Shown here: in pieces, positions 16,646-28,964 of the stretch
Numbering within the stretch: the stretch's first letter is position 1
Layout of the letters: the number at the start of each line of letters is the position of its first letter
Origin: Drouetiella hepatica Uher 2000/2452
GTDB taxonomy: Bacteria; Cyanobacteriota; Cyanobacteriia; Elainellales; Elainellaceae
DNA: 64,000 nucleotides
NCBI GenBank assembly: GCA_019359505.1
Contig: JAHHHD010000003.1
Location: forward strand, 186,001 to 250,000
Direction: 5' to 3'
The notes under the pieces: model-generated
Database searches by the model: none
Seen by the model: the letters and a program-made list of their open reading frames with translations, nothing else
Told to the model about the DNA's origin: nothing
Translations under genes and position numbers: made by a program

Positions 16646-17674
16646 ATGCAGACCTATGACAATACCGACGTGAAATATGATTGGTGGGCAGGAAATGCCC
16701 GCTTCGCCAACCTGTCTGGATTATTTATTTCAGCCCATGTGGCTCAGGCAGCTCTAATTACGTTTTGGGCAGGGGCTTTCACCCTGTTTGAAATTTCCCG
16801 ATTTAATCTTGCTCAACCCATGGGGGAACAGGGGCTAATTCTTTTGCCTCATCTGGCAACTCTTGGCTGGGGGGTAGGAGATGGCGGTCAGATTGTCGAT
16901 ACGTATCCCTACTTTGTCGTGGGTGCAATTCACTTGATTTCATCGGCTGTGCTGGGAGCGGGTGCGTTATTCCACGCATTCCGGGCACCCGAAAATCTCA
17001 AAACCGCAACGGGTCAAGCCAAAAAGTTTCACTTTGACTGGGATAATTCCAAGCAATTGGGGTTGATTCTGGGGCATCACCTGCTGTTTTTGGGGGCAGG
17101 TACGCTGTTGCTGGCGGCTAAAGCCATGTATTGGGGAGGGCTTTATGATTCAACAACGCAGACGGTTCGCGTTATCACATCACCCACACTGAATCCAGCC
17201 GTAAATCACGGCTATCAGACTCACTTTGCGAACATTAGCAGTCTGGAAGATCTGGTCGGCGGACATATTTTTGTTGGGGTGATGCTAATAGCTGGTGGCA
17301 TCTGGCATATTTTAGTGCCTCCATTGAATTGGGCGAAAAAGGTTCTGATCTTTTCGGGTGAAGCGATCTTGTCCTATTCTCTGGGTGGAATTGCCCTAGC
17401 GGGGTTTGTAGCGGCTTACTTCTGCGCAGTGAACACGCTAGCCTATCCACCGGAATTTTATGGGGCACCTCTAGAAGTCAAGTTGGGTGTCGTGCCTTAC
17501 TTTGCAGATACGGTAGGTTTACCCTCAGGTGCCCACACGTCTCGCTGCTGGCTTGCTAACGCTCATTTCTTTTTAGCGTTCTTCTTTTTGCAAGGTCATC
17601 TCTGGCACGCACTACGGGCGATCGGCTTTGATTTTAGACGAGTCGAACGTGCCCTTAACTCTGTAGAGGTTTAG
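16646..17674 (+). CDS. isiA: Iron-stress chlorophyll-binding protein IsiA (CP43')
   Basis: 342 residues, the normal IsiA length, with six membrane helices and conserved His ligands for chlorophyll (for example [39 protein letters not shown]). It lacks the large lumenal loop of CP43. Under iron starvation IsiA forms antenna rings around photosystem I in the thylakoid membrane and dissipates excess energy. The ATG at 16646 has AAGGAGA 9 nt upstream. isiB follows in the same direction, with a stable hairpin between them. No C-terminal PsaL-like fusion is present. Confidence 0.96.
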
Positions 17675-17692
17675 TTCTTTTCCTGACGCTAT

Positions 17693-17723
17693 GGGGAGTT
17701 CCATAGATTGTCTGGAACTCTCC
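17693..17723 (+). terminator. Intercistronic hairpin between isiA and isiB
   Basis: GGGGAGTTCCA (17693-17703) pairs over 11 positions (one G-U) with TGGAACTCTCC (17713-17723) across a 9-nt loop. It lies 19 bp after isiA and about 70 bp before isiB. A pyrimidine-rich stretch follows but no true T-run, so partial termination or 3'-end stabilisation of isiA mRNA is likely. Confidence 0.7.
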
Positions 17724-17795
17724 TCTCTTCATTCACCATTCGATTCTATTTGTTCACAAATAGAAAACGATCGAGAAATTTATCTAGGGGGAAAT

Positions 17796-18308
17796 ATGGC
17801 AAAGATCGGTTTATTTTACGGTACTCAAACTGGAAACACTCAAACCGCCGCAGAGATAATCCAAAAAGAATTGGGCGGATCTAGCGCTGTAGATTTACAT
17901 GACGTATCGACTGTCGATACGACTGATTTTGAGGGTTACGAGTTTATCATTATCGGTTGTCCTACCTGGAATATTGGCGAACTGCAAAGTGACTGGGAAG
18001 GCTTCTATGATGAGCTAGAAGCGATCGCCTTCACGGGTAAAAAAGTGGCGTATTTTGGTGTGGGCGATCAGGTGGGCTACGCTGACAACTTTCAGGACGC
18101 AATGGGAATTTTGGAAGAGAAGATTTTATCTCTGGGAGGTACAACAGTAGGCTGCTGGTCTACGGACGGCTATGACTTCAATGAGTCGAAAGCGGTTAGG
18201 GATGGGAAGTTTGTGGGACTGGCGATCGATGAAGATAACCAGTCAGAACTGACGGACAGCCGAATCAAGTCTTGGGTAACACAACTCAAGCGAGAGTTTG
18301 GTCTGTAG
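17796..18308 (+). CDS. isiB: Flavodoxin IsiB
   Basis: 170 residues. The true start is the ATG at 17796 with AGGGGGA upstream. Longer upstream extensions run through the isiA-isiB spacer. It is a long-chain flavodoxin: FMN phosphate loop FYGTQTGNTQ at the N-terminus, CPTWNIGELQSDW around the isoalloxazine ring and the loop insertion FGVGDQVGYADNFQDA. It replaces ferredoxin as a soluble electron carrier from photosystem I when iron is scarce. It is co-transcribed with isiA. Confidence 0.97.
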   Translation: MAKIGLFYGTQTGNTQTAAEIIQKELGGSSAVDLHDVSTVDTTDFEGYEFIIIGCPTWNIGELQSDWEGFYDELEAIAFTGKKVAYFGVGDQVGYADNFQDAMGILEEKILSLGGTTVGCWSTDGYDFNESKAVRDGKFVGLAIDEDNQSELTDSRIKSWVTQLKREFGL

Positions 18309-20202: not shown

Positions 20203-20299
20203 GTATGGCAACCGCCAAGGCGGTTAGGACGGAGACATTTTGGGTGGGGCGCGAAGCGCCCCACCCAAAATGTCCCAAGCAAACTGGCGATAGCTGTAT
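20203..20299 (+). repeat. Hairpin repeat family A, copy A2
   Basis: Begins TATGGCAACCGCCAAGGCGG, has the central palindrome ATTTTGGGTGGGGCGCGAAG and its complement, and ends AACTGGCGATAGCTGTATA. Its right end is fused to repeat B2. Confidence 0.9.
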
Positions 20300-20382
20300 A
20301 GCGCTACTTGCTTAGATCCAATGAGTTATTTTTTGAGGGTCGCGCAGCTCTCAAAAAATAACTCAATGACGTAATGCCATAT
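20296..20382 (+). repeat. Hairpin repeat family B, copy B2
   Basis: TATAGCGCTACTTGCTTAG ... TTATTTTTTGAGGG ... CTCTCAAAAAATAACTCAAT ... GTAATGCCATA. The palindrome tip is shorter than in B1. It begins within the last bases of A2. Confidence 0.85.
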
Positions 20383-20743: not shown

Positions 20744-22192
20744 ATGCAACACGATCGTCTTTCAAGTGGAATCCTAGGACTAGATGAAGTGCTAGAGGGT
20801 GGGCTAATTCCTCAACAAGCTTACTTGGTGAGAGGAGGGCCTGGAGTCGGCAAAACTACGCTGGGTCTAGCGTTTTTGATAGCTGGTGCAGCGCTGGATG
20901 AGCCAACACTTTTTATCTCTCTAGGAGAATCTGAAGCCCAGCTGCGGTCAAATGCCAGTCGCTTAGGATTTGATACTAAAGGCGTTTCCTTTCTCGACCT
21001 TAGCCCTAGCTCTAGCTTTTTTACAGAAGTGGAAACTTACGATATCTTCTCTCCATCTGAAGTTGAGAGAGCGCCGACCACAGAGCGAATTGTGGAATGT
21101 GTGCAGCAGATCCAGCCGCGTCGGGTCTTCATTGATGCCATGACACAGTTTCGCTATCTATCGAGTGATGTATTCCAGTTTCGTAAGCAGGTTCTGTCTT
21201 TTTTACGGTTTTTGCTAGAGCAGGGAGCTACAGTTCTGTTTGCTTCTGAAAGCAATGTCGCTAATCCAGATGACGATCTGCAGTTTATGAGCGACGGCGT
21301 GATTGAGCTTTGCCAAGATGAAGGCGATCGCAGCGTTAGCATCACCAAATTTCGCGGTTCGTCCTTTCGAGCAGGTTCACACACCCTACGGCTGCTAAAG
21401 ACAGGTATGGAAGTGTTTCCTCGACTGCGCCCTGAGCAATATGAACAGAATTTTGCAATGGAGGTTATTTCGTCTGGTATCCCAGAGCTAGATCGGTTGC
21501 TGCATGGCGGCATTGAGCGCGGAACCATCACGGTTCTGACTGGCCCTACGGGAGTCGGCAAAACCTCTCTAGGTCTGCAATTTATGAAAGCTGCCGCAGA
21601 GCGTGGAGAGCGATCGGTACTCTACACGTTTGAGGAGCAGGTGGGCACTCTACTGCACAGAGCCGAGGCAATTAGCACTCCCGTACGGCAGATGATTGAA
21701 TCGGGCACCCTATCAATTGTGCCAATCGAGCCAATGGATCTTAGCCCGGATGAGTTTGCTAGCAGAGTGCGAGAGGAAGTAGACCAGCATCATGTTCGAG
21801 TCGTGATGATTGACAGCACTGCGGGTTATCAGCTATCAGTGCGAGGGACAGCGCTCATCACCCATCTGCATTCTCTCTGTAAGTATCTTCAGAATGTTGG
21901 CGTAACGGTCATCTTGGTGAATGAGACTGAAAGCATTACGGGAGACTTTCGCGTTACCGAAATTGGCATTAGCTATCTCGCCGACAACATTTTGTTTCTG
22001 CGCTATCTGGAGATGCAGGGTGAAATGCGTAAGGCGATCGGGGTGCTTAAGAAAAGGCTCTCTGATTTTGAACGGACGCTGAGAGAGCTAGACATTACCT
22101 CAGAGGGGATAAAAATAGGTCAACCCCTAGCGCATCTACGCGGACTGCTGAGTGGAATCCCAGAATGGGCAGACAAACGTCACCTCTTGTAA
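20744..22192 (+). CDS. KaiC-like tandem RecA-fold ATPase
   Basis: 482 residues with two RecA/KaiC domains. Domain 1 (about 1-235) has Walker A RGGPGVGKTT (Lys37). Domain 2 (about 240-470) has TGPTGVGKTS (Lys273) and the KaiC-type catalytic Glu pair FEEQ (297-298). The region matching KaiC Ser431-Thr432 reads GISYLADN, so the site would be Ser410-Tyr411 instead of Ser-Thr. The block RYLEMQGEMRKAIGVLKKR matches KaiC closely. It is shorter than clock KaiC (about 519), and no kaiA or kaiB is nearby. The next two genes encode a receiver protein and a hybrid kinase, suggesting a signalling ATPase rather than the core clock. Confidence 0.88.
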   Translation: MQHDRLSSGILGLDEVLEGGLIPQQAYLVRGGPGVGKTTLGLAFLIAGAALDEPTLFISLGESEAQLRSNASRLGFDTKGVSFLDLSPSSSFFTEVETYDIFSPSEVERAPTTERIVECVQQIQPRRVFIDAMTQFRYLSSDVFQFRKQVLSFLRFLLEQGATVLFASESNVANPDDDLQFMSDGVIELCQDEGDRSVSITKFRGSSFRAGSHTLRLLKTGMEVFPRLRPEQYEQNFAMEVISSGIPELDRLLHGGIERGTITVLTGPTGVGKTSLGLQFMKAAAERGERSVLYTFEEQVGTLLHRAEAISTPVRQMIESGTLSIVPIEPMDLSPDEFASRVREEVDQHHVRVVMIDSTAGYQLSVRGTALITHLHSLCKYLQNVGVTVILVNETESITGDFRVTEIGISYLADNILFLRYLEMQGEMRKAIGVLKKRLSDFERTLRELDITSEGIKIGQPLAHLRGLLSGIPEWADKRHLL

Positions 22193-22220
22193 TGCCTGAT
22201 GTGTAAGGTCTGAAGCCCTG

Positions 22221-22595
22221 ATGCCCAAAGCTCCTCCAAAAATCCTGATCCTCGATCGCAACCGTCACAACCTAACTTTGATGACGCAGTTTTTAGAGAA
22301 GCAGGGTTATCAGACTTTGCCCGTAATCTCTCTAGAGGAGGTTGCCCGCACCCTAATCCCCTCGAATACAATTAACCTGGCACTTATAGACATTACTGGG
22401 TTTGATTCCAGCGTTTGGACGGTATGCCAGCAGCTTCGTGAGCAGGGAATTCCTTTTTTAGTGGTTTCACCACGCCACCATTCTGCCATTCAGCAAGCAA
22501 GCATTGCCTCTGGAGCAATGGGGTTGCTAGGAAAGCCTCTAGCCATGCGGGAATTTGCACAGCTCATTCGGGATTTGCTGAAAGGATCAGAATGA
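22221..22595 (+). CDS. Single-domain receiver protein with degenerate acidic pocket
   Basis: 124 residues, a stand-alone REC fold. The phosphoacceptor position is Asp57 (ALIDITG) and the conserved Lys is in LLGKPL. The N-terminal acidic pair is reduced to Asp12-Arg13 (LILDRNRHN), so Mg2+ binding and phosphorylation may be weakened. No output domain. It sits 28 bp after the KaiC-like gene and shares a 4-bp ATGA overlap with the kinase gene, which indicates translational coupling and a three-gene operon. Confidence 0.85.
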   Translation: MPKAPPKILILDRNRHNLTLMTQFLEKQGYQTLPVISLEEVARTLIPSNTINLALIDITGFDSSVWTVCQQLREQGIPFLVVSPRHHSAIQQASIASGAMGLLGKPLAMREFAQLIRDLLKGSE

Positions 22596-24943
22596 ATCGG
22601 ATTTTACTGCTTCTGGAACACCGCGAGAACCGCCGTCTTTTATCGGAATGGCTTCAGCCTCGCTATCAGGTGATTGAGTTAGAACCAGACGCAGATGGCA
22701 TTGATGAGTCGCTGTTGTCGCAGTCTTTCGACCTATGCATTATTGGGCCTAGAACTTTAGATCAGCTCTGGCAGGCAGTACAAGTCCGACGCTCTGCCGA
22801 GCAGCCTGTTTTGCTGCCGTTTCTGCTGAGTACCAGTCGGCAAGGCGTAAAGTATGGAACGCGGTATTTGTGGAAAAGCATTGATGAACTGATTACTCAG
22901 CCGATTGAAAAGCTTGAATTGCAGGCAAGGGTTGAGATCCTGCTACGATCGCGCCAGCTTTCGCTACAGCTTCAAGCTTCCAAACAGATCACAGCAGAGC
23001 AGATTAAGGCTCGACAGCAGGCTGAAGTGAAACGAGATCGGGCTATCTCAGCTCAACGCTACAGCGATGAGCAGTTCCTCCAGATGGCTGAGATTATTCC
23101 TAGCGTGTTCTGGCTGTTTGATCTGCAAACTCAGCAAATGATTTATCTGAGTCCTGCCTATCAAGAGATTTGGGGACGTTCTCGTGAAGAGCTGTACGAC
23201 GATTTTAGTATCTGGATTGAGACAGTGCATCCTGACGATCGCCCACAGATGCGCACTGCACCCGAACGCTGTATCGCAAATGGTCGGAATGATGAAGAGT
23301 ATCGGATTATTCAACCTGATGGTGCGGTGCGCTGGATACGCGATCGCGGCTTTAGTTTGTATGACGCCCAGGGGCAGCCTTGTCGATTGGCGGGCGTTGC
23401 TGAAGACATTACCGATCGCAAATATACCGAGCTGGCTCTGCAAGAAAGTGAGCAGCGCTATCGAGATCTAGCGGAAGCCATGCCCCAAATTGTAGGGCTA
23501 ATGCAGCCTACAGGGGAGATTACCTATCTCAATCAGCAGTGGTATCGCTACACGGGGCTAAGTGAAGCCGAGTCGCTGGGGTTTGGCTGCTTTGTTGCCG
23601 TGCATCCAGACGATCGGGAGCGGATTGTGCAAAGTTGGCAACTGGCAGTGGCAGCTGGACAACAAGCTGAGGTGGAGTATCGGTTACGCCGTCGAGACGG
23701 GATGTATCGCTGGTTTGTGAGTCGAGCGGTGCCGCGCCATGATCGATCGGGTCAAATTGCCAGCTGGATTGGTACCGTCACCGATATTGACGATCAGAAG
23801 CGGGGACAAGAAGCGGCTGAACGCGCCAATCGCGTCAAAGATGAGTTTCTAGCGGTGCTGTCCCATGAGCTGCGTACGCCCATGAATCCCATTCTGGGCT
23901 GGGCAACATTGTTGCAACGCGGCAAGCTAGATGCCGCAAAAACGACTCAAGCGCTGGCGACGATCGAGCGTAATGCCAAACTTCAGGTGCAGCTGATTGA
24001 CGATCTGCTGGACATTTCCCGAATTTTGCGCGGTATGCTTACTCTAACGATGCTGCCCGTTGATTTATCGGCTGTGGTCATGAGCGCGATCGATACCGTG
24101 CGTCTTGCCATCGATGCCAAAGCCATTCGGCTTAATCTACGGCTTAGCCCAGAGGTGGGGTATGTATTGGGTGATACGACTCGGTTGCAGCAGGTCGTCT
24201 GGAATCTCATCACAAATGCCGTCAAATTCACGCCCGCTGACGGAGAGATTTCTATTGAGCTAATCCAAGTCGAAAACCAGGCTCAGATTCAAGTCAGAGA
24301 CAGCGGTAAGGGCATCCAACCCGACTTTTTGCCCCATGTGTTTGAGCATTTTCGTCAGGAGGATGGCGCAACGACCCGCAAATTTGGCGGCTTAGGATTA
24401 GGTTTGGCGATCGTTCGTCAAATAGTTGAGATGCATGGTGGCATGGTGAGGGTAGAGAGTCCCGGCAAAGATCAAGGCGCAACTTTTACCGTTTGTCTGC
24501 CGCTGATGTCTTCAAAAACCGCGCCGCAAGCATTAGAGCGATCGCCCCAATGTACGGGCGATCTGAGCGACATAAAAATTTTAGTTGTGGATGATGATCC
24601 TGACTCGCGGGAGTTCATTGCTTTTGCGTTAGAGCAAGCAGGCGCAACCGTCACGGTGGTCGGCTCTGGCAGCGAAGCACTTCAGTCCCTAATCCAATCT
24701 CCTCCTGATCTCTTGATCAGCGATATTGGTATGCCTGAAATGGATGGCTACGCGCTGATGCAGCAGATCCGAAGTCTGACGAGTCCTCAAGGAAAAATTC
24801 CGGCGATTGCGCTAACGGCTTACGCCGGGGAAGCTGATGAGCAGAGAGCCTACCAGGTGGGTTTTCAAAAGCATATGGCAAAGCCGATCGATCCGGTCGC
24901 TGGCGTTGCAGCTGTCTCTGAGCTAATACGGAGCCTAGCGTAG
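22592..24943 (+). CDS. Hybrid sensor histidine kinase with two PAS domains
   Basis: 783 residues, soluble. Order: a degenerate receiver-like domain (about 1-125), a coiled coil, PAS 1 (about 165-280), PAS 2 (about 285-405), HisKA with H-box LSHELRTPMNP (His425), HATPase with NLITNAVKF, DSGKGI and GGLGLGLAIV, and a C-terminal receiver with VVDDDPDSRE and ISDIGMPEMDGY. The C-terminal receiver has a complete acidic pocket, unlike the preceding gene product. PAS motifs DRPQM and DITDRKYTE are visible. The input signal is not evident. It is the third gene of the KaiC-like operon. Confidence 0.93.
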   Translation: MNRILLLLEHRENRRLLSEWLQPRYQVIELEPDADGIDESLLSQSFDLCIIGPRTLDQLWQAVQVRRSAEQPVLLPFLLSTSRQGVKYGTRYLWKSIDELITQPIEKLELQARVEILLRSRQLSLQLQASKQITAEQIKARQQAEVKRDRAISAQRYSDEQFLQMAEIIPSVFWLFDLQTQQMIYLSPAYQEIWGRSREELYDDFSIWIETVHPDDRPQMRTAPERCIANGRNDEEYRIIQPDGAVRWIRDRGFSLYDAQGQPCRLAGVAEDITDRKYTELALQESEQRYRDLAEAMPQIVGLMQPTGEITYLNQQWYRYTGLSEAESLGFGCFVAVHPDDRERIVQSWQLAVAAGQQAEVEYRLRRRDGMYRWFVSRAVPRHDRSGQIASWIGTVTDIDDQKRGQEAAERANRVKDEFLAVLSHELRTPMNPILGWATLLQRGKLDAAKTTQALATIERNAKLQVQLIDDLLDISRILRGMLTLTMLPVDLSAVVMSAIDTVRLAIDAKAIRLNLRLSPEVGYVLGDTTRLQQVVWNLITNAVKFTPADGEISIELIQVENQAQIQVRDSGKGIQPDFLPHVFEHFRQEDGATTRKFGGLGLGLAIVRQIVEMHGGMVRVESPGKDQGATFTVCLPLMSSKTAPQALERSPQCTGDLSDIKILVVDDDPDSREFIAFALEQAGATVTVVGSGSEALQSLIQSPPDLLISDIGMPEMDGYALMQQIRSLTSPQGKIPAIALTAYAGEADEQRAYQVGFQKHMAKPIDPVAGVAAVSELIRSLA

Positions 24944-25027
24944 GTCAAGCCTTGCTTAGGGCTTTTCAGTTCATTACGGTTCGCGTAAGCCCGAATCTTC
25001 CCATCACCCGCTAAAATTCTTAAGGAT

Positions 25028-25076
25028 GGGACAGCTTATTCACTGAGATAAATTATTCCTGTGAATAAGCTATCCC
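25028..25076 (+). promoter_or_regulatory. Long hairpin in the gltX leader
   Basis: GGGACAGCTTATTCAC (25028-25043) pairs with GTGAATAAGCTATCCC (25061-25076) over 16 positions with one mismatch. The 17-nt loop is AT-rich. No T-run follows. It lies 34 bp before the gltX ATG, so it could be a leader element, a 3' processing site of the kinase mRNA or a small repeat. Confidence 0.6.
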
Positions 25077-25109
25077 AGCATCAGGTTTTCCTAATTATCT
25101 TGAGTTTTT

Positions 25110-27884: not shown

Positions 27885-28964
27885 TTATCCCTTTGCTGCC
27901 GCCAGCTTACTCGCCATCGCCACCAGCTGCGCCTCGCCATAAATATACTGCCCCAGCGCATTTGCCTGACGAGAGGGTTTTGCCAAATGTCCTTTGAGTC
28001 GGGCTTCCCGCAACAGCGGACGGAAATCGTTCCAGAAGAACTCACCGCCACCGCCGCTAACAATTACATCGGTCACCCGTTCGGGCAGCCAGGTGATGAG
28101 GCGATCGCTCAGTTCGCGGGCAAAGCTTTTGCGCAAGCTAGGCAGAATGTCATCTAGATTCGTCGGCTTGGTTTCGCCTCTCGGACGGTAGAACCGTTCG
28201 CCTTCAGGACGGTGAACCACTTCAATCAGCGAGAGAGACTGGCTGTCAGCTCCCTGAATTTGGGCAGCAACTTGCTCATAAAACTGGCTCATGGCGAAGG
28301 GTTCGCTCTTCGATGCGCCCCTAGCAAACCGAAAGCGATCGACCATCAAAAAATCTGTAGTTTGGTGCCCAATATCGACGATCGCCACCGAGAGGCTAGG
28401 AAAATCGGGGCTAGCGGCTTTTTTGTCCTGTGCTTCGCACCAGATGAGGCTGCCAAATCCCTCCGGCATCACCCAGACATTCTGGATATCCACGGCAACA
28501 AAATCGCCGCGATAGCTCATGACATGGGGCGATCGCACCAGACTAATCACCTGCTCTTTCTCGCGGTCAAACTGCTCTTGCGAGTAGTAGGGCAGCCCTA
28601 CGACCACCGAAATTTCTCCCTTCAGCCCAAAATAGCCGACGCAGGCCAGCACCTTGACCAGAGCATCCTCCACTTTGGATTGCCCTACGCCGAGGTTTGC
28701 GCCAAAGTCAGCGGCAAGTTGACCGATCGCAAAGCCTCGCCCCTGAAACTCCAGCCAAATATCCATCAGTGGGTCGGTGGGCTGCGACTCAAAGCCGCCG
28801 CGCCGCACCTGCTCAACGGTGAGATGCGCCACGTTCGCCGGAATGAGCACTACTTTTTCGGGTTCACGGCTGGCGCTTGCCTTGGTGGAGGTGCGACCTA
28901 AGTCAACGCTGAGGACGGTCATTGAAGCAGTGACGGGAAGAGTAGCAGGGGGTTTGCTGACCAT
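27885..28964 (-). CDS. ParM/StbA-like actin-family ATPase
   Basis: 359 residues. Actin-fold nucleotide-binding motifs are visible: phosphate 1 (LSVDLGRTSTKAS), phosphate 2 (AIVDIGHQTTDFL) and the adenosine motif (DVIVSGGGGEFF). The domain really begins at MTVLSVDLG, so the ATG at 28922 is an alternative start to 28964. ParM-type ATPases polymerise into filaments that segregate low-copy plasmids. Chromosomal relatives exist in cyanobacteria with unknown cargo. The downstream coiled-coil gene is the probable adaptor. Base composition does not stand out from the neighbours. Confidence 0.85.
   Translation of the reverse strand: MVSKPPATLPVTASMTVLSVDLGRTSTKASASREPEKVVLIPANVAHLTVEQVRRGGFESQPTDPLMDIWLEFQGRGFAIGQLAADFGANLGVGQSKVEDALVKVLACVGYFGLKGEISVVVGLPYYSQEQFDREKEQVISLVRSPHVMSYRGDFVAVDIQNVWVMPEGFGSLIWCEAQDKKAASPDFPSLSVAIVDIGHQTTDFLMVDRFRFARGASKSEPFAMSQFYEQVAAQIQGADSQSLSLIEVVHRPEGERFYRPRGETKPTNLDDILPSLRKSFARELSDRLITWLPERVTDVIVSGGGGEFFWNDFRPLLREARLKGHLAKPSRQANALGQYIYGEAQLVAMASKLAAAKG

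Follow-up and report, generated by a model that had tools for sequence, protein, structure and literature searches.

A KaiC-like ATPase encoded by the cyanobacterium Drouetiella hepatica Uher 2000/2452 belongs to a family of its own (here termed family F), separate from the clock KaiC proteins, and its gene is accompanied, at most loci in Cyanobacteria, Chloroflexota and Halobacteria, by a gene that opens with a shared degenerate receiver domain (here termed Nrec), behind which quite different output domains are found. The genes in question lie at positions 20744 to 24943 of a 64,000-nucleotide stretch (contig JAHHHD010000003.1 of assembly GCA_019359505.1, positions 186,001 to 250,000 of the forward strand), hereafter the window, to whose numbering all coordinates refer. 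At the level of sequence comparison the family, the adjacency, the exchange of domains and the parallel divergence of the two partners are established. The mechanism that we favor, with a probability of roughly 60%, is that of a KaiC ring which acts outside the clock and has a dedicated reader: Nrec would dock on the ring and pass the state of the ring to the output fused to it. That the ATPase gates or reads its partner, as a preliminary description of this DNA had suggested for the kinase, is something that we infer.

The pair bears on the role of KaiC rings beyond the clock. Two bacterial phyla and the archaea share a single domain of about 125 residues that is probably what reads a KaiC of the non-clock type, and the recurrence of this pairing suggests a reusable non-clock switch; kinases, diguanylate cyclases or a DNA-binding output are attached to this same domain. 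The Nrec-ATPase pairing can also be set beside SasA when asking how that kinase became a reader of the clock.

Results

The operon in the window

Three genes follow one another on the forward strand. The first encodes the two-domain ATPase (482 residues; 20744..22192), which was recognized from its open reading frame (ORF), its Pfam and structure matches and its position in the tree. The second, which starts 28 bp past the ATPase stop codon, encodes a small single-domain atypical receiver (124 residues; 22221..22595), and an ATGA overlap leads from it into the third, a hybrid histidine kinase of 783 residues (22592..24943). This arrangement, already given in the preliminary description, is borne out by the ORF coordinates. 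In Pfam, the ATPase matches PF06745 in two stretches and the small ORF matches Response_reg, while the kinase shows two PAS domains (23072..23803), a HisKA and HATPase_c core (23837..24505) and a C-terminal Response_reg (24578..24916), whose acidic pair, phospho-Asp and Lys are all kept when inspected by eye, so that the phosphorylation pocket is intact as first described. Kinase residues 1-128 (22592..22975), which have no Pfam match, constitute Nrec, the proposed ATPase-docking domain. Neither kaiA nor kaiB is found near the operon; in the 6.4-Mb host genome both stand together with a normal kaiC (L002) on another contig.

Conservation of the ATPase-Nrec pair

A close match to the ATPase (E≤1e-80) is present in 34 of the 291 genomes of the host's class and in neither of the two other genomes of the host's genus that were searched, so the gene has to be regarded as accessory. 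In almost every locus, the gene adjoining the ATPase opens with a homologue of kinase residues 1-128. Nrec adjoins the ATPase in 33 of these 34 genomes (the 34th carries a distant member, L074), and all 33 matches of at least 128 bits to the Nrec profile (A1) in the class adjoin an ATPase gene, 31 of them downstream and two in divergent orientation. Since the profile was built from these same class loci, the informative part of this result is that no strong unlinked copy of Nrec was found in the 291 genomes, with at most 14 candidates scored in each. Below about 50 bits the profile matches run into ordinary receivers.

The Halobacteria provide a test with little profile bias, because only two of the 38 profile rows are haloarchaeal. 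There, the ATPase (E≤1e-60) occurs in 96 of 145 genomes and Nrec in 72, all of which lie within those 96. As many as 85 of the 88 Nrec places (E≤1e-14) are found at most 3 kb from an ATPase place, and 78 of the 112 ATPase places have an Nrec within that distance (58 downstream, 20 divergent). Two of these 112 places belong to one split gene, a family member that looks frameshifted and is spread over two overlapping places (G333:C1:1956485-1957914) beside a divergent Nrec gene. Among 201 Chloroflexota genomes, the ATPase (E≤1e-60) is found in eight, two of the proteins being distant (34-38% identity), and it is adjacent to Nrec in six. Family F members extend to metagenome-assembled genomes of Anaerolineae (65-66% identity) and to Halobacteria (53-55%). 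The neighborhood is conserved in all three groups, so that the lack of conservation named beforehand as one of two outcomes contradicting the preliminary description was not seen, and the adjacency is beyond chance and no local oddity.

Several variants of the locus were met. In L205 (an Acaryochloris plasmid), L071 and L072 the ATPase gene has a kinase gene on either side: an Nrec-kinase in divergent orientation, and a receiver-kinase in convergent orientation, the receiver of the latter being apparently intact in L205. A tandem pair of Nrec proteins follows a single haloarchaeal ATPase in L168, L174 and L206, and one Chloroflexota genome has two KaiC-like genes about 400 bp apart (L161). Two genomes with the module (L112, L113) also encode, away from KaiC, a second Nrec-like kinase (869 and 876 residues; 97 and 94 bits), which is a possible trans partner.

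Exchange of outputs and parallel divergence

The outputs found behind Nrec are short kinases, PAS-hybrid kinases (as in the window), GGDEF domains and a BAT-HTH output. In a set of 38 partners (34 from cyanobacteria, two each from Chloroflexota and Halobacteria), 29 have HATPase_c and nine have GGDEF, one of the latter together with EAL; of another 26 Nrec proteins, all from Chloroflexota or Halobacteria, 24 have HATPase_c, the other two being a GAF-BAT-HTH_10 protein and one with PAS only. PAS domains were detected in at least 10 members of the set of 38 and in 21 of the 26. Just over half of the cyanobacterial partners (18/34) are 361-401 residues long. The loci L062-L069 encode Nrec-GGDEF partners, with the GGEEF motif intact in L062 and L065; such a partner would couple a KaiC-like ATPase to cyclic di-GMP in one cyanobacterial genus. 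The view of the three genes as one signaling module therefore has to be amended: the module is conserved, and the conserved partner is Nrec rather than the kinase, because its place behind Nrec may be taken by a kinase of another type, by GGDEF with or without EAL, or by a DNA-binding output.

Divergence was compared over 24 loci with a HisKA-type core (23 cyanobacterial and one from Chloroflexota; the truncated L073 and L034 were left out). Identity between ATPases follows identity between Nrec domains (Spearman 0.75, a value reached in none of 500 label shuffles), whereas its correlation with the identity between kinase cores is 0.21 (23 of 500 shuffles as high) and that of Nrec with the core is 0.01. 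Three relatives share the PAS-hybrid layout of the window kinase; its core is 0.59-0.63 identical to theirs and 0.26-0.37 identical to those of the remaining 20, with corresponding values for Nrec of 0.66-0.79 and 0.34-0.64. The simplest account would be an exchange of whatever follows Nrec, with Nrec itself remaining beside the ATPase, and this parallel divergence is the strongest hint that Nrec may couple to the ATPase.

Nrec as a degenerate receiver

Nrec is predicted to have a receiver fold (predicted local distance difference test, pLDDT, of 89), with receivers making up 49 of 50 among the Foldseek matches listed, and its profile matches PleD with an E-value of 1e-14; Pfam Response_reg detects it in 3 of 38 proteins only. 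The first acidic position of the pocket is acidic in none of the 63 sequences that have a residue aligned to it, and only 4 of 64 retain the Lys. In the window, the pocket positions read L8-E9, G52 and Q103, in agreement with the degenerate N-terminal receiver first described, and Gly at the phospho-position is found in five sequences, those of the window's branch. Judged by these residues, the Nrec of the window is a pseudo-receiver, and that of most relatives an atypical one.

The ATPase family

The window ATPase has the features of the KaiC superfamily, namely two PF06745 domains, Walker A motifs and the KaiC fold (AlphaFold2 model with a confidence of 86.7 and a match to KaiC structures). 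It is 29% identical to the clock KaiC of its own genome and falls short of the NCBIfam cut-offs for KaiC (178.9 against 546.25 bits for TIGR02655, 259.3 against 408 for NF006799). In a tree of 44 rows, family F forms one side of a branch with a bootstrap of 100 and an SH-aLRT (Shimodaira-Hasegawa-like approximate likelihood ratio test) of 99, and KaiC1, KaiC2-like and KaiC3 proteins group together with the same support (100/99), apart from it. Next to the family in this tree stand three KaiC-like proteins encoded on alphaproteobacterial plasmids, together with the distant L074 and L160. The rows of this tree were picked by hand (27 of the 63 family rows, 13 of 20 references and four alphaproteobacterial ones), the midpoint root serves for drawing only, and the KaiC3 and KaiC2-like labels were assigned from identity to KaiC1 (51-55% and 35-38%, respectively); a quick tree of a larger set of 69 rows gave the same grouping. 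Clustering of the ATPase with a clock KaiC clade, the other outcome named beforehand as contradicting the preliminary description, was not seen, and the tree likewise led us to reject the idea of a decayed KaiC3.

Residue counts across the family refer to 63 members. They leave out L162 and L163 (weak Nrec and no adjoining KaiC), and the alignments leave out L033, L035 and L036, which either duplicate other loci or do not belong to the class sample; the truncated L073 was omitted from alignment A2 and from the trees, and L041 is a match of 26 residues only. Both Walker A motifs are kept, as first noted (K37 and K273, in all 63 aligned members), and so is the catalytic Glu pair of the second domain, CII (E297/E298 in the window), save for one Asp in the family. 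In the first domain, CI, the first Glu of the corresponding pair is replaced by Gly in the window (G61), a point absent from the earlier account; replacement is found in 37 of the 63 members (Gly in 31 of the 37), with 31/33 in cyanobacteria, 3/7 in Chloroflexota and 3/23 in Halobacteria. The KaiA-binding C-terminal tail is absent in the alignment with the host's clock KaiC.

At the position of S431/T432, where clock KaiC has Ser-Thr (Ser-Ser would also qualify), the window ATPase reads S410-Y411 (21971..21976), as the preliminary description had it. The position of S431 is Ser or Thr in all 63 members, that of T426 is Thr or Ser in all 63, and the residue after S431 is Tyr in 60, so that decay of the site in this genome was rejected and the Ser-Tyr pair is a hallmark of family F. 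Some KaiC3 proteins also have Tyr at the phosphosite (PMC5520375), and a Tyr there is therefore not decisive alone against a clock KaiC.

A second family-specific trait is a loop of CI, residues 91-110 (21014..21073), in which F93, Y99, V107 and E108 are nearly invariant. It exceeds its counterpart in clock KaiC by eight residues and is aligned with the B-loop region that binds KaiB and SasA, placed at residues 116-123 of clock KaiC (PMC12084410, PMC6378743). Its AlphaFold2 confidence is low (pLDDT of about 53). A conserved and probably flexible loop at this place is compatible with partner binding and does not amount to proof of it.

Kai proteins in the same genomes

Among the 96 haloarchaeal genomes with the ATPase, 23 were tested for KaiB; no match was found in 22 of them and one match below the cut-off in the 23rd, from which it follows that the module has no need of KaiB there. 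The seven Chloroflexota genomes tested include four with KaiB and three with no match; the assemblies may be incomplete. The host genome does carry kaiABC, so that independence of the clock, as first suggested, is at most putative in this organism.

The small receiver

The small receiver of the window has, as first reported, lost one acidic residue of the pocket (D12-R13); it keeps D57 and K105 and carries the motif DITGFDxxxWxxC. A profile built from such loci has 12 matches, in 12 of the 291 genomes, all of them between the ATPase and the partner gene, so that this protein is an optional part of the module (12 of 33 class loci). It is also present in four of seven Chloroflexota loci, and in three haloarchaeal loci lacking Nrec it comes directly after the ATPase. 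Of 20 such proteins, 19 retain D57 and all 20 retain K105, and the second pocket position is never acidic. A special kinship with Nrec was considered and rejected: the two profiles do align (hhalign E of 3.9e-8), yet other receivers would too, and the scores of three small receivers against the Nrec profile (20-27 bits) are below those of many ordinary receivers.

Discussion

Proposed mechanism

In the mechanism that we propose, the ATPase would form a double-ring hexamer of the KaiC type, as its homology to KaiC suggests, and the nucleotide or phosphorylation state of this ring (at S410, perhaps also at Y411) would shift with the energy or redox state of the cell. Nrec would dock on the ring and thereby switch the fused output on or off, in the manner of SasA on KaiC but through another fold. 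In the window, phosphate would then move from the kinase core to the receiver at the C-terminus of the same protein, and from there to a further regulator. Where present, the small receiver could also bind the ring, and might compete with Nrec for it much as free KaiB does with SasA. Docking may take place at the flexible, conserved loop of CI, which is the weakest step of the proposal. A bolder version, which we regard as rather unlikely, would make this a receiver-fold counterpart of KaiB and SasA, with free and kinase-fused receivers competing at the CI loop, and the KaiC ring a general, output-independent switch of bacteria and archaea, of which the clock is one special case.

Several observations weigh against a KaiC ring read by Nrec. 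The domain is not plainly dead, since 56 of 64 sequences have Asp at the phospho-position and at least 37 have an acidic residue, Glu or Asp, at the second acidic position, which is why most relatives are to be called atypical rather than inactive. All nine GGDEF partners come from one cyanobacterial genus, so that they stand for few events. The linkage has exceptions: the next six Nrec-like places of the host's class (54-97 bits) have no KaiC beside them in the fetched stretches; for 34 of the 112 ATPase places in Halobacteria, the surrounding 3 kb contain no Nrec at E≤1e-14 (of five inspected, two have weak Nrec-like partners, at 50 and 33 bits, and three the small receiver only); and three of the nine Chloroflexota genomes with Nrec have no ATPase at E≤1e-60 (G527, 128.9 bits; G583, 65.3; G504, 58.3), nor one in the fetched 10-15 kb. 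Covariation between ATPase and Nrec, computed over 109 non-redundant pairs, gave 206 position pairs above the shuffled 99.9% level against about 41 expected, but these are scattered and relatedness can cause such an excess; the top score (0.214, KaiC E97 with Nrec Y88) lies inside the range of the shuffles, which reach 0.222, and no docking site is supported by it. Finally, adjacency and parallel divergence fall short of binding, and co-inheritance could give both.

Among the other explanations, the kinase side may be the input, with the pseudo-receiver kinase or its cognate signal controlling the ATPase, which would then be an effector on DNA or proteins like the RecA-like or GvpD-like ATPases. 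The uniformity of the ATPase beside partners with variable sensor and output parts, and the PAS domains counted above, would fit this arrangement, but GGDEF, GGDEF-EAL and BAT-HTH are complete effectors with no obvious use for a downstream ATPase effector, and we hold it to be doubtful. A slow phosphorylation cycle of the ATPase at S410/Y411, acting as an hourglass whose time is read by the partner, is quite improbable in our estimation. It agrees with the conservation of the S431 and T426 positions and of the CII Glu pair, and a timer of this kind was proposed in 2011 for another KaiC group (PMC3164672). Against it stand the missing KaiA tail, the 22 of 23 haloarchaeal genomes tested that have no KaiB match and the replacement of Thr by Tyr in 60 of 63 members, and slow or periodic behavior finds no support in this analysis. 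Mere co-inheritance, in which the genes travel as a cassette and the proteins act separately, has in its favor the patchy spread of the ATPase in the host's class, the related genes on plasmids and the few Nrec genes that stand alone, but it is very improbable, since the adjacency outlasts changes of gene order and exchange of outputs and Nrec diverges in parallel with the ATPase while the core hardly follows.

Comparison with known systems

Proteins with a Ser-Tyr site have been met before, among them Caur_0239 and rrnAC0131, which we take to be from Chloroflexus and Haloarcula, respectively. In PMC3164672 (2011), these two are placed in a heterogeneous third group, and a figure legend notes branches of the SY type that join the paired group. 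In that paired group, the gene after kaiC encodes a kinase whose N-terminal domain is conserved and was proposed to be a SasA-like interaction module, and co-transcription was shown in Ramlibacter by RT-PCR (reverse transcription polymerase chain reaction); cyanobacterial kaiC genes were excepted there from the statement on kaiC near signaling genes. These KaiC/Nt_HK operons (Ramlibacter and others) resemble the module described here in the kaiC with an SY, TY or SF site, the dedicated kinase and a weakly receiver-like N-terminus. The order of kaiC and then a dedicated kinase is also found here, though some of our partners are not kinases; the genomes of that group have no kaiB, whereas the window genome and four of seven Chloroflexota genomes do have it, with no match in 22 of 23 haloarchaea; and a shared domain with exchangeable outputs is not described in the accessible text of PMC3164672. 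The principle of a KaiC with an N-terminal partner module has therefore been proposed before, as far as that text goes.

The partners in L203, L204 and L207 (alphaproteobacterial) and in L074 share a degenerate N-terminal domain other than Nrec, perhaps of the type of the Ramlibacter domain RtaNt. In four such presumed relatives, this domain did not align with the Nrec profile (hhalign E of 0.31) but did so with the small-receiver profile (E of 1.6e-6).

SasA is by analogy similar to the Nrec kinases, being a soluble kinase whose N-terminal domain, like Nrec, is presumed to bind the KaiC ring. It differs in that this domain has a KaiB-like thioredoxin fold (PMC6378743, PMC5520375) and not the receiver fold of Nrec, and in that it is not encoded beside kaiC (figure legend of PMC3164672). 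Pfam gave no match to a KaiB domain in the window kinase, and the possibility of a SasA with added PAS domains was rejected, as the N-terminal fold differs. CikA, like the partners described here, has a pseudo-receiver on a kinase linked to Kai proteins, but not in the N-terminal position that Nrec occupies. According to PMC12632262, the pseudo-receiver of CikA binds KaiB, unlike in the haloarchaeal module, which needs no KaiB.

For archaea, Makarova, Galperin and Koonin (mBio, 2017; cited in PMC5847659) reportedly proposed KaiC-family ATPases as hubs connected with many signaling domains. Haloferax volcanii CirC, described in PMC3941300 as a two-domain KaiC homologue of 52.7 kDa encoded beside 'fixL', is for these two reasons (two domains and the neighboring 'fixL') a likely member of family F. 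No description of the cyanobacterial-haloarchaeal Nrec domain was found in a literature search that covered few subscription papers and did not include the mBio 2017 article, nor any mention there of a shared receiver-type domain with exchangeable outputs, spread over Cyanobacteria, Chloroflexota and Halobacteria.

Other features of the window and related plasmids

Scans for promoters and terminators in the window gave sites no more numerous than in shuffled sequence. An imperfect inverted repeat (25-nt arms, 84%; 25027..25077) in the interval between the operon and gltX is a possible transcript end, and is not among the terminator-like sites of the scan. Upstream of the operon there is a perfect 19-nt inverted repeat with a 3-nt loop (20234-20274) and a second repeat at 20319-20368.

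KaiC-like proteins (E≤1e-40) were found in 249 plasmid records, just over half of them from Sinorhizobium, Agrobacterium or Rhizobium, and 113 of the 249 were typed as conjugative. Elsewhere in the window, Pfam places a CP43-like protein (photosystem II family) and then a flavodoxin at 16646-18308, which is the layout of the iron-stress pair isiA-isiB, and an actin-like protein (ALP_N, MreB-like_C) is encoded at 27885-28964, on a contig of at least 250 kb.

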